In this document: positions 7,180 to 12,778 of the stretch, piece by piece
How positions within the stretch are numbered: the stretch's first letter is position 1
Layout: the number at the start of each line of letters is the position of its first letter
Assembly (NCBI RefSeq): GCF_030295425.1
Contig: NZ_AP027081.1
Location: 4,422,001-4,486,000, forward strand
Reading direction: 5' to 3'
Origin: Mesoterricola sediminis
GTDB lineage: Bacteria; Acidobacteriota; Holophagae; Holophagales; Holophagaceae
DNA length: 64,000 bases
The notes under the pieces: model-generated
Database searches by the model: none
What the model was told of the DNA's origin: nothing
What the model saw: only the letters and a program-made list of their open reading frames with translations
Translations under genes and position numbers: made by a program

Positions 7180-7207
7180 TTGCCATGCCGCCTCGGTAGC
7201 CTATAGT
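7180..7207 (+). promoter_or_regulatory. Putative transposase promoter
   Basis: TTGCCA (7180-7185) and TATAGT (7202-7207) are separated by 16 bp and lie just before the AGAAGAGG ribosome site of the IS4-family transposase. The implied leader is very short, so this is a plausible but unproven promoter. Confidence 0.4.
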
Positions 7208-7224
7208 TGCAAGAAGAGGCGACC

Positions 7225-8548
7225 ATGGCGAGGACTGCGGCGACGCTCCCGGCAGGGAGTCGGATCACCGATTACATGAGCTTGGGGGTGGTGGCAAAGA
7301 CCTTCCCCCGAGCACACGTGGACGAGGTTCTAAAGCGCACAGGCAGGACCAGTGCGCGGCAACGGGACCTGCCCGCCCATGTCGTCGTCTACTACGTGAT
7401 CGCTCTCGCGTTATTCATGCAGGCTTCCTACGGTGAGGTGCTGCGATGCCTGCTGGAAGGCGTCCAATGGTTGATGGACAAGGCTGTCGAGCCGAAGGTC
7501 TCCCACAAATCCAGCATTTCCCAGGCCCGAATCCGACTTGGTTGGGAGCCGATGAAATTGCTTCACGACGAGATCGTCAAGCCGATCGCAACGCCTCAGA
7601 CACGTGGTGCCTGGTTTCGGGACTGGCGTCTGGTGAGCATTGACGGAAGCACCCTTGATGTTCCGGATGAGGCTGAGAAGGAGGAAGCCTTCGGATCTCT
7701 GGGGTCATCGCGAGGCAAAGTCGCATTCCCGAAGGTCCGGTTTGTTTGCCTCTGTGAGCTTGGGACCCATGTGATGTTCGGGAGTCGCGTAGATTCCTAT
7801 GAGGTCGGAGAGGTCACACTTGCGGAGGACGTGTTGCCCCTGCTCGAACCAGGGATGCTCTGCCTGGCCGATCGCGGATTCAATTGCTTCAAGCTATGGA
7901 AGTTGGCCCAAGGAACCGGGGCTGATCTCCTTTGGCGCCTGCGTAAGGACATGAACCTGCCCAGGGAGAAGCAACTGCAGGATGGAAGCTACCTGAGCAC
8001 CTTCTACGAGTATTGGTATGACCGGAAGAAGTCCACGAATGGAATTCGGGTCCGCGTTGTGGAATACACCCTGGATGGGATGGAGGGAGCGGAACCGATC
8101 TACCGCCTGGCGACTACCATCCTCGATCCAGAGAAAGCCCCAGCCAGGGAATTGGCTGCCCTCTATCACGAGCGATGGGAGATCGAGAGTGCGTTCGATG
8201 AATTGAAGACCCATCTCCGGGGTCGCCAGGTAACCCTTCGAAGCAAGACGCCTGACCTGGTCAGACAGGAGTTCTACGGGATGATGATGGCCCACTTTTC
8301 CATCCGCGGCCTGATGCATGAAGCGGCCCTGAAGGGGGATGTCGATCCCGATCGCTTATCGTTCCTGCACGCAGTTCGGGTGATTCGCCGCAAGCTGACG
8401 CGTTTCGCGTCTCTCCCCCCCTCGGGAGAGGCCGGCATTCCATCAGAGCGTCCTGTCTGAGCTGCTGAGCGAACCCGCAGGCTGTAGCCGCGACCGGATG
8501 AACCCCAGGGCCATCAAACGGAAGATGAGCAACTGGCCGACCCGACTA
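7225..8548 (+). pseudogene. IS4-family transposase, frameshifted near the C terminus
   Basis: The ATG at 7225 is preferred over an in-frame TTG at 7207 because AGAAGAGG lies 5 nt before it. The open frame gives 411 residues to the TGA at 8460. DDE residues are present: D140 (SIDGSTLD), D216 (CLADRGF) and E321 in YHERWEIESAFDELK, a perfect IS4 Y-R-E-K signature. After FASLPP the frame leaves the family: a run of seven C near 8415-8421 precedes a switch. In the +1 frame the expected ending continues as FHQSVLSELLSEPAGCSRD then MNPRAIKRKMSNWP. The reading frame is then cut at about 8548, where the IS5 remnant begins. It is probably inactive, or very recently mutated. Confidence 0.8.
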
Positions 8549-8704: not shown

Positions 8705-8754
8705 CGCTCCTGGAACCTGCCACCTCCCAATGACACGTCCCAACGGGAGGCGTG

Positions 8755-9099
8755 ATGGGAAGGCATTGGGGAGAGGTCGACGGGGAGGATCATCCGCACA
8801 AGGAGATCACCCAGGCCATCATCGGGGAGGCCATCGAGATCCAGAAGGCTCTGGGGCACGGACTCCTGGAAGATCCCTACAAGGTCTGTCTGGCGCACTC
8901 CCTGAGACTGGCCGGCCATAAGGTGAAGCGGGAGGTTTTCCTGGATATCGAGTGGAGGGGGCTTGTGGTTGAGCGGGCCTATCGGCTGGATTTGCTGGTT
9001 GACGACCTCGTGGTCGTGGAGGCGAAGGCGGAATGGAGGTCGGCCTGCTCCTCAATTTCCGTCAGTGGCCTTTCAAAGACGGTGGAATCAAGCGGGTGA
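8755..9099 (+). pseudogene. GxxExxY protein (PD-(D/E)XK_3), internally deleted
   Basis: The ATG at 8755 follows a GGGAGG site. The N-terminal two thirds match the GxxExxY family: the name-giving motif is present as GLLEDPY, and the nuclease-like core is RLDLLVDDLVVVEAKA with the E-x-K pair. After VEAKAEWRS the frame is wrong. Another frame carries the normal ending VGLLLNFRQWPFKDGGIK. About 25-30 codons therefore seem to be missing at the junction, with loss of frame, and the open frame stops at 9099. These proteins belong to the PD-(D/E)XK nuclease superfamily but have no established role that I know of. The gene lies between inverted repeats inside an IS5-family element. Confidence 0.8.
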
Positions 9100-11529: not shown

Positions 11530-12309
11530 TCAGGCCTCGCCGCCCTTCCCCTCCCGGTGCCGGCCCTTGGTGGGCGGCCGGGTGATGAGCCGAAGGGATT
11601 CGGGGGGCGGGGGCAGATCGGGCAGGGAAAGGGGGGACAGCAGGTTGTCGCCGACCACCTTCCAGGCGCGGGCCTGCTTGGGCAGGCGCTCGGGCTGCAT
11701 GACCTCCCAGCCCTGGGCGTACGAAACGAAGGAGGGCATCACGAGGGCGAAGCCCGTGAAGAGGAAGGCGGGGTACCGCAGCCACTCCGACCCGGTCTCC
11801 CCGATGGGCACCGCGAAGAGCGGATGGAGCCCGCCGTTGATCCAGAAGCCGTTGGGCGGGTCGTGGCGGGGGTAGACGAAGATGCGGCGGCGGTGCATGA
11901 GGGTGTGCGAGCCCACGCGGTAGGTGTCCATGGGCTGGATCCCGGTCCCCTCCAGGGACGGGCCCCAGCTCCGTTCGGGGTGGCCCACCACCTGCACGAC
12001 CTCCCGGCGGTGGCCGGCCAGCTTGCGGAACAGGAGGCGCAGTTCCTCGGCCTCCTCGTCCTCCAGGTGCCCCTGGTTGGGCTTGATGTCGCCCAGGATG
12101 GCCACCCGGCGCGGCTTGAAGTCATCGAGCAGGCCCAGGAGGCGCTCCCAGATCTCGTGCTGCTGGCCATTCGGAAGTGCGTCCGGGCGCTTCCGCCGTC
12201 CGGCCCCCAACCCCAGGAACAGGTCGGCGATGACCAGGGTCTCCTGGCGGGGCAGGAGGATGGCTCTCCGGCTGTCGAGGATGATGTCTTCCGAGAACTT
12301 GATCTGCAT
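11530..12309 (-). CDS. Metallophosphoesterase-like protein with missing metal ligands
   Basis: Start chosen at 12309 (MQIKFSEDIILDS); the upstream in-frame extension is not protein-like. The 259-residue protein resembles the PdeM-type calcineurin-like phosphoesterase layout: ETLVIADLFLGLGAG, PRRVAILGDIKPNQG and QVVGHPERSWG stand where DxH, GDxxH and GNH(D/E) motifs are expected. DxH reads DLF, the second motif keeps GD but lacks its His, and GNHD reads GHPE. The C-terminal half (GFWINGGLHPLFAVPIGE, LFTGFALVMPSF) is less recognisable. It may be a non-catalytic or altered relative. It lies 55 bp upstream of the DUF5916 gene on the same strand and is divergent from the membrane-protein gene. Confidence 0.6.
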   Translation of the reverse strand: MQIKFSEDIILDSRRAILLPRQETLVIADLFLGLGAGRRKRPDALPNGQQHEIWERLLGLLDDFKPRRVAILGDIKPNQGHLEDEEAEELRLLFRKLAGHRREVVQVVGHPERSWGPSLEGTGIQPMDTYRVGSHTLMHRRRIFVYPRHDPPNGFWINGGLHPLFAVPIGETGSEWLRYPAFLFTGFALVMPSFVSYAQGWEVMQPERLPKQARAWKVVGDNLLSPLSLPDLPPPPESLRLITRPPTKGRHREGKGGEA

Positions 12310-12430
12310 GGGCCTGTTTTTCCGCTCCCTCCCATTGGAACATGACCGGGGGGCCCCGTGGGCATCGGCGGCAAGGATGCCCCCGGCGGCGCCCGGGCGT
12401 ACTGGTATCCTTGCGCTGGAGGATGCCGTC

Positions 12431-12778
12431 GTGCCGCTGGAAGCCCCTGCCCCCCTGTACACGGGTGACCGCCTGAGGGACTTGATCCTGTGCTATGCGG
12501 GCCCCTGGGCCTTCCTGCCCTACCTCCGCCGCCGGGACGACGAGGAACTGCTCTGGCATTCCCGGCAGGGGGTGCTGCTGGCCTTCTCCGAGGTGTCCCT
12601 GGCCCTGGCGCTGGTCATCATGGGGCTCTTCCCCCTCGTGGGCTTCGTCTTCGTGCGCTTCTTCCTCCCCCTCTGGCTCATGTGGTGCCTGACCATGTCC
12701 GTCACCGCCATCCTGCAGGCCTGCAAGGGCAAGCGGCACAAGATCCCGGTCCTCTGCCAGTTCATGGACTACCTGTAG
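12431..12778 (+). CDS. Small integral membrane protein (DUF4870/Tic20-like)
   Basis: A GTG at 12431, 7 nt after GGAGGA, begins a 115-residue protein. It has an amphipathic N-terminal part (YAGPWAFLPYLRRRDDEELL), two hydrophobic spans near residues 45-95 and a basic C terminus (CKGKRHKIPVL). The WHSRQGVLLAF segment preceding the membrane spans resembles DUF4870-type proteins, whose function is unknown. It overlaps the sugar kinase start by one base (TAGTG), so the two are probably translated together. Confidence 0.7.
   Translation: MPLEAPAPLYTGDRLRDLILCYAGPWAFLPYLRRRDDEELLWHSRQGVLLAFSEVSLALALVIMGLFPLVGFVFVRFFLPLWLMWCLTMSVTAILQACKGKRHKIPVLCQFMDYL

Follow-up and report, generated by a model that had tools for sequence, protein, structure and literature searches.

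Does a protein that has kept the fold of a metal-dependent phosphoesterase, with residues of its metal site exchanged, still cut phosphoesters, or has it been put to another use? The question is raised by a gene in a stretch of 64,000 nucleotides from the genome of Mesoterricola sediminis (contig NZ_AP027081.1; the whole stretch is called the window below). An earlier note, made from the letters alone, described its product as a phosphoesterase-like protein without its metal ligands that may have become a binding or regulatory protein. The gene was found exactly where that note had placed it, intact and on the minus strand, the lowest three positions being the stop codon (Table 1). It is a single-copy gene in a 4.52-Mb genome, and in the alignment of family proteins M1 is the start in 57/57 relatives. 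This alignment includes 57 proteins (the protein from genome G058, cut at 110 residues, was omitted); the canonical PdeM set used for comparison has 11 members, 10 chosen from 28 plasmid records plus locus L058.

Table 1. Positions in the window of the PdeM-like gene and of the motifs of its product, with residue counts in 57 family proteins and 11 canonical PdeM proteins
Feature	Positions	Strand	Observation
PdeM-like protein gene, 259 aa	11530..12309	-	ATG at 12309, stop TGA at 11530-11532; open frame, codon-usage gene call
Motif I, D29-L30-F31 (canonical D-x-H)	12217..12225	-	D 57/57; F 57/57 versus H 11/11 canonical
Motif II, G73-D74-I-K76-P77-N-Q79-G80 (canonical GDxxH)	12070..12093	-	Bridging Asp kept: D 54/57, N in 3; new invariants K, P, Q, G 57/57
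Motif III, G109-H110-P111-E112-R113 (canonical GNHD)	11971..11985	-	H52/Q5; P50 (His 0/57); E39/D18; R57
Motif IV and family insertion, H139-R140-R141-R142-I-F-V-Y-P-R148	11866..11895	-	Ligand His kept, H 56/57; R140, R141, F144, V145, Y146, P147, R148 57/57
Motif V, W156-I-N-G-G160-L-H162-P163 (canonical GHxH)	11821..11844	-	G160 57/57 versus H 11/11; H162, W156, N158 57/57
C-terminal extension, residues 223-259	11533..11643	-	Short strand, then Pro/Arg/Lys-rich tail; P236, R244 57/57

The window protein had no match in the Pfam search, Metallophos included; five of the comparison rows matched PF00149, four of them above its cut-off. The NCBIfam profile of PdeM (TIGR04123) did match it along its full length (7-221; 2.5e-23, 82.6 bits), and a weaker match was observed to TIGR00024, the profile of archaeal SbcD-related phosphoesterases (46.4 bits, cut-off 115.2). 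Among 30 family members scanned, all matched TIGR04123 and 29 matched TIGR00024. The equivalog cut-off of TIGR04123 (150 bits) was reached neither by the window protein nor by any other member of the family (maximum 90.7 bits); from eight comparison rows seven scored 166.7-226.3 and the archaeal row L178 scored 97.5. The only solved structures matched by sequence at E <1 were those of the Pseudomonas putida nuclease MPE (6nvo, 6nvp), with E 1.5e-6 for the single window protein and 7.7e-11 for the family profile.

Structure prediction and comparison with PdeM-type enzymes, proposed in the earlier note as a check, gave a concordant picture. The best of five AlphaFold2 models had pLDDT 82.6 and pTM 0.83 (the five span pLDDT 61.4-82.6); its weak stretches are residues 35-48 and the last 14 residues (246-259), where pLDDT is <50. 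With this model Foldseek ranked 6nvo first (E 3.0e-11, TM 0.80 of target), and VIA-align aligned 194 residues of the 200-residue 6nvo chain (Z 19.3, rmsd 2.7), the best entry beyond nuclease MPE reaching only Z 9.4. Chains of Vps29 and of the Pol delta B-subunit were matched at Z 7.3-7.8, which implies a common fold only. The model is an alpha/beta sandwich of the calcineurin-like metallophosphoesterase type, in which the ligand loops follow the ends of successive strands; the strands finish at residues 28, 72, 107, 140 and 160, at or just ahead of each motif. A model of locus L118, the most eroded family member, was poor (pLDDT 62.7) and was left out of the reasoning. Full-length profile matches and fold matches together rule out a chance likeness of short motifs. 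The window protein is a distant PdeM relative with a metallophosphoesterase fold; the kinship recognized earlier from the letters is thus confirmed by TIGR04123, the model and both structural searches.

The superfamily to which PdeM belongs is characterized by the motifs D(X)H, GD, GNHD, H and GH(X)H, in which four His, two Asp and one Asn bind the metals (PMC4320098). Positions of the motifs in the window protein agreed in three alignments (HMMER to 6nvo, profile-profile to canonical PdeM, and MAFFT). Four of the seven ligands are kept (D29, D74, H139, H162) and three are replaced (H31 by Phe, N110 by His, H160 by Gly). Position 111, now Pro, held the His following the Asn ligand, which we take to be the catalytic His. 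The full complement of an active enzyme, seven ligands with the catalytic His, is therefore reduced to four ligands, the catalytic His occurring in 0/57 family proteins; likewise, neither Asn at 110 nor His at 111 was seen in any of the 57. In the canonical rows the corresponding residues were canonical in 11/11, with two exceptions at 10/11, the GDxxH His and that at position 139. Residues 144-148 of the Arg-rich stretch mostly align to gaps in canonical PdeM.

All three motif changes reported earlier, DLF (29-31), GDIKPN (73-78) and GHPE (109-112), are present in each of the alignments. With regard to GDIKPN the missing His is genuine, since P77 is found in 57/57 family proteins versus His in 10/11 canonical rows; however, the His of GDxxH does not figure in the ligand list of PMC4320098. 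A fourth altered motif had been overlooked: GHxH became GGLH, with Gly at 160 throughout the family. The description 'without its metal ligands' was too strong, given the four ligands that remain and the lost Asn that is now His. Other His or Asp residues in the metal site had been named as an observation that would count against it, and in part one appears to be there, H110 standing at the place of the Asn ligand in 52/57 proteins. On the other hand, the replacing residues are conserved in relatives, a point the note had asked about: F31, P77 and G160 are each 57/57. Because F31 and P77 never vary and neither Asn110 nor His111 occurs, the changes are no sequencing accidents. The alignments give good support for the loss of the two-metal centre, since three ligands and the catalytic His are replaced across the whole clade; D74, H110 and H139 could still hold one metal, at most in the 52 proteins with H110.

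Residues that never vary in the 57 Holophagaceae proteins (F31, K76-P77, R140-R141, N158, G160) are located at the replaced site, and the loops of the old site carry a number of invariant newcomers (K76, Q79, G80, R113, R140, R141, F144-R148, W156, N158). Further invariants lie beyond the metal loops: W54-E55, E86, E89, A198-Q-G200 and R208-L-P. Two smaller alignments were also made, A1 with 30 of the 57 proteins and A2 with the window protein plus 37 loci out of the 61 from a genome scan. In 24 sequences <85% identical to each other, there are 67 invariant positions among the first 245, and the mean entropy within three residues of ten site positions is 0.48 versus 1.02 elsewhere. In a circular-shift test with this margin an equally low entropy was obtained in 1/244 shifts; with wider margins the numbers were 2/244 (five residues) and 21/244 (eight residues). 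As judged from these alignments, the old active-site loops are the best-conserved part of the family protein; only motif III departs from this, with varying residues at 110-112 (position 111 has P, S, Q or M and position 112 has E or D). The entropy minimum and the invariant newcomers on the site loops indicate that the altered site is constrained and has not drifted.

Comparison of the window gene with five congeners gave dN/dS of 0.09-0.25, values to be read with dS being rough at such G+C (1195 pairs: median 0.27, range 0.02-0.71). Internal stops are absent in 57/57 aligned frames; the single stop in the matches of L013 and L014 is their terminal stop codon. The family proteins are basic, with a median pI of 9.25 versus 7.20 in the canonical rows, though the ranges overlap (6.52-9.95 and 4.54-9.49).

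We observed matches in 59/100 genomes searched (its own included), namely in 58 of 61 genomes of a family group, which we infer to be Holophagaceae, and in G091, a genome from another family of the phylum with a canonical PdeM above cut-off. All 11 genera of the family carry matches. A search of 297 genomes across the phylum gave 27 matches, 26 in the family plus one in genome G208. The latter was considered as an intermediate outside the family and rejected; on reading it is canonical (DVH, GDFLH, GNHD, GHLH). Thus the 100- and 297-genome searches produced no intermediate outside the family, only the canonical proteins of G091 and G208. Conversely, no canonical PdeM above cut-off was found in the 61 family genomes. 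A genome scan with two family-specific patterns, which is blind to relatives lacking them, retrieved 61 loci. Most are titled Holophagaceae or Geothrix, the others Holophagales, Holophaga or unspecific Acidobacteria, with two exceptions; these, titled Deltaproteobacteria and Bacillota, share 76% and 72% identity with the window protein and probably represent bins with a wrong label. In a plasmid search the window protein reached PdeM-like genes in 10 plasmid records only at E 0.004-0.7, and a phage search with it gave no match.

The gene is present in three family genomes of only 0.9-1.2 Mb. It was not matched in G034, G050 and G054, and in no case is this a clean loss. For G034, the match to the neighbourhood ends before the gene. 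A clean loss in G050 and G054 was rejected: the whole neighbourhood is missing there, ThyX and QueA included (two control genomes have both), and only cross-matches to the 12.8-kb neighbourhood were seen; DUF192 had no match in these two genomes either, in a search run without a positive control.

A tree was built from 11 canonical rows (L183 was dropped for suspect ends and L185 added) and 27 of the 57 proteins of the family. The family forms one side of a branch with support 100/100; the stem has 4.1 changes per column and the median end branch 0.19. The tree program warned of long branches, and the root position is unsure. On this tree the change of the site falls on one stem, and slow evolution under purifying selection follows. 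By parsimony within the family, D74 was lost once (to Asn), H110 twice (to Gln) and H139 once (to Tyr), the remainder of the site staying as it was; K76, R140, R141 and N158 never change in the 57 proteins while D74 and H110 drop out. These losses within the clade speak against a metal site needed by all members.

Canonical PdeM is clustered with an exonuclease, an ATP-dependent ligase and a DEXH helicase, as seen in Comamonas. No such cluster was found in the family neighbourhoods. There the PdeM-like gene is solitary, and the unrelated genes around it encode QueA, ThyX, DUF192, a small DUF4870-like membrane protein, in many cases a TauE/SafE permease, and a product that from its sequence we presume to be transaldolase-like. 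Of 62 neighbourhoods, 38 have a divergent TauE/SafE permease nearby and 41 a convergent DUF192 gene; no genes were called in nine (L062, L064, L109-L112, L115, L117, L118), and in two more (L072, L119) one gene each was called and the target was missing. The 62 neighbourhoods gave no functional clue or partner. Since no ligase-associated helicase or exonuclease above cut-off was found in 60 genomes, including 37 from the family, the PdeM repair pathway, judged on the helicase and exonuclease models, seems to be absent from the family. In the window itself (12309-12431) the TauE/SafE permease is absent, and its place as divergent neighbour is taken by the DUF4870-like membrane protein.

We consider it rather probable that the protein is a pseudo-phosphoesterase, which lost its two-metal centre and whose old active site serves as a cationic pocket or surface for binding without cutting. 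A PdeM-type (MPE) nuclease fold in a Holophagaceae ancestor would have lost the catalytic centre once, early, through the changes His31 to Phe, Asn110 to His, His111 to Pro and His160 to Gly, and the same loops would have gained basic, polar and aromatic residues that are strictly kept (K76, Q79, R113, R140, R141, R148, W156, N158) and that may come together in one pocket. The putative target is either a partner docked at the old site or a ligand that bears phosphate, such as a nucleic acid or a nucleotide, and the protein would act as a binder or sensor. We place the binding there because the old active site is where conservation is highest and where the new Lys, Arg, Asn and Trp are fixed. 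The binding or regulatory role suggested earlier would agree with the purifying selection and with how strictly the altered site is conserved; still, the analysis revealed neither a ligand or partner nor a target of regulation. Other observations are against the pseudo-phosphoesterase: D29 and H162 are kept without exception and four of seven ligands in all, which a metal-free protein would not need; gene context yields no partner; and there is the possible one-metal site in up to 52/57 proteins. As a tentative scenario, a DNA-repair nuclease could have turned into a metal-independent core protein binding phosphate or nucleic acid, with Lys and Arg at the metal sites, its pathway lost first and the gene kept nearly everywhere, even in genomes of ~1 Mb.

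According to the main rival explanation, the protein remains an enzyme whose site has been rebuilt around one metal or in an unusual way (D74, H110, H139 with D29, H162) and which acts on a new phosphoester substrate. The retention of D29 and H162 in 57/57, H139 in 56/57 and D74 in 54/57 proteins, the exchange of the ligand Asn for His, and loops as well conserved as expected of an active site would all be explained; the absence of the catalytic His from every member, the drift of motif III at 111 and 112, and the repeated loss of H110, with D74 and H139 each lost once while the remaining site stayed unchanged, make such an enzyme unlikely. A scaffold role comparable to that of Vps29 or of the DNA polymerase B-subunits, with a partner protein docked on surfaces off the old site, is also doubtful. 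The many invariants outside the metal loops, the insertion RRRIFVYPR and the structural matches to Vps29 and Pol delta B-subunit chains (a common fold only) are in its favour, whereas no linked partner gene was seen and conservation peaks at the old active-site loops, though docking there stays compatible with it. A functionless, decaying relic of PdeM, to which lost catalytic residues and pathway partners under the cut-offs might point, is highly improbable; the low dN/dS in all five congeneric pairs, the frames without internal stop, the 67 invariant positions and the retention in 58/61 genomes led us to reject it.

Compared with known systems, the window protein shares with PdeM and nuclease MPE the fold over nearly the whole chain, D29, D74, H139, H162 and a C-terminal P-x-F. 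It differs from PdeM in that all family genomes are under the equivalog cut-off, three ligands and the catalytic His are replaced, and the family has an Arg-rich insertion and no ligase/helicase/exonuclease operon. Likeness to the archaeal SbcD-related phosphoesterases is limited to the weaker full-length match, far under 115.2 bits, and the archaeal L178 keeps DxH, GDxxH, GNHD and GHxH, although it is the single archaeal row examined and itself is under the cut-offs of both TIGR04123 and TIGR00024. Metallophosphoesterase folds put to non-catalytic use are described for the retromer component Vps29, a scaffold (PMC9636581), and for the catalytically inactive B-subunits of eukaryotic DNA polymerases (PMC4996933). 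Unlike the family protein, these belong to other branches of the superfamily (Z 7.3-7.8 as against 19.3 for nuclease MPE), are eukaryotic and have known partners. The residues replaced in Vps29 and in the B-subunits differ from those replaced here. To our knowledge, inactive metallophosphoesterase relatives are known mainly from eukaryotes, Vps29 and the polymerase B-subunits. In literature searches, from which subscription journals were mostly outside scope, we found no paper on a phosphoesterase clade of Holophagaceae, Geothrix or Holophaga, or on the metal residues of metallophosphoesterase pseudoenzymes. A soil and sediment bacterial clade with the change on one stem, fixed in 11 genera, and with the former site as the region conserved best, would offer a clean case of a nuclease becoming a binding protein; the names 'PdeM' or 'phosphoesterase' would be misleading if transferred to the Holophagaceae proteins.

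Elsewhere in the window, an IS4-type transposase (7207-8460, plus strand; PF13006, PF01609) lies between a cysteine-synthase-like gene and a DUF5916 gene; it was not picked by the codon-usage caller, as can happen with mobile genes. By the transposase there is a short PD-(D/E)XK nuclease-like ORF (8752-9099, plus strand; PF13366, 2.7e-19) that looks truncated, matching profile positions 1-77 of 117. In a Geothrix MAG (L074, 9855-11777, minus strand) ThyX, which has 226 aa in two other loci of the neighbourhood, is split by an intein-like insert (PF14890, 2.3e-7, under cut-off) with an HNH endonuclease domain (PF01844).
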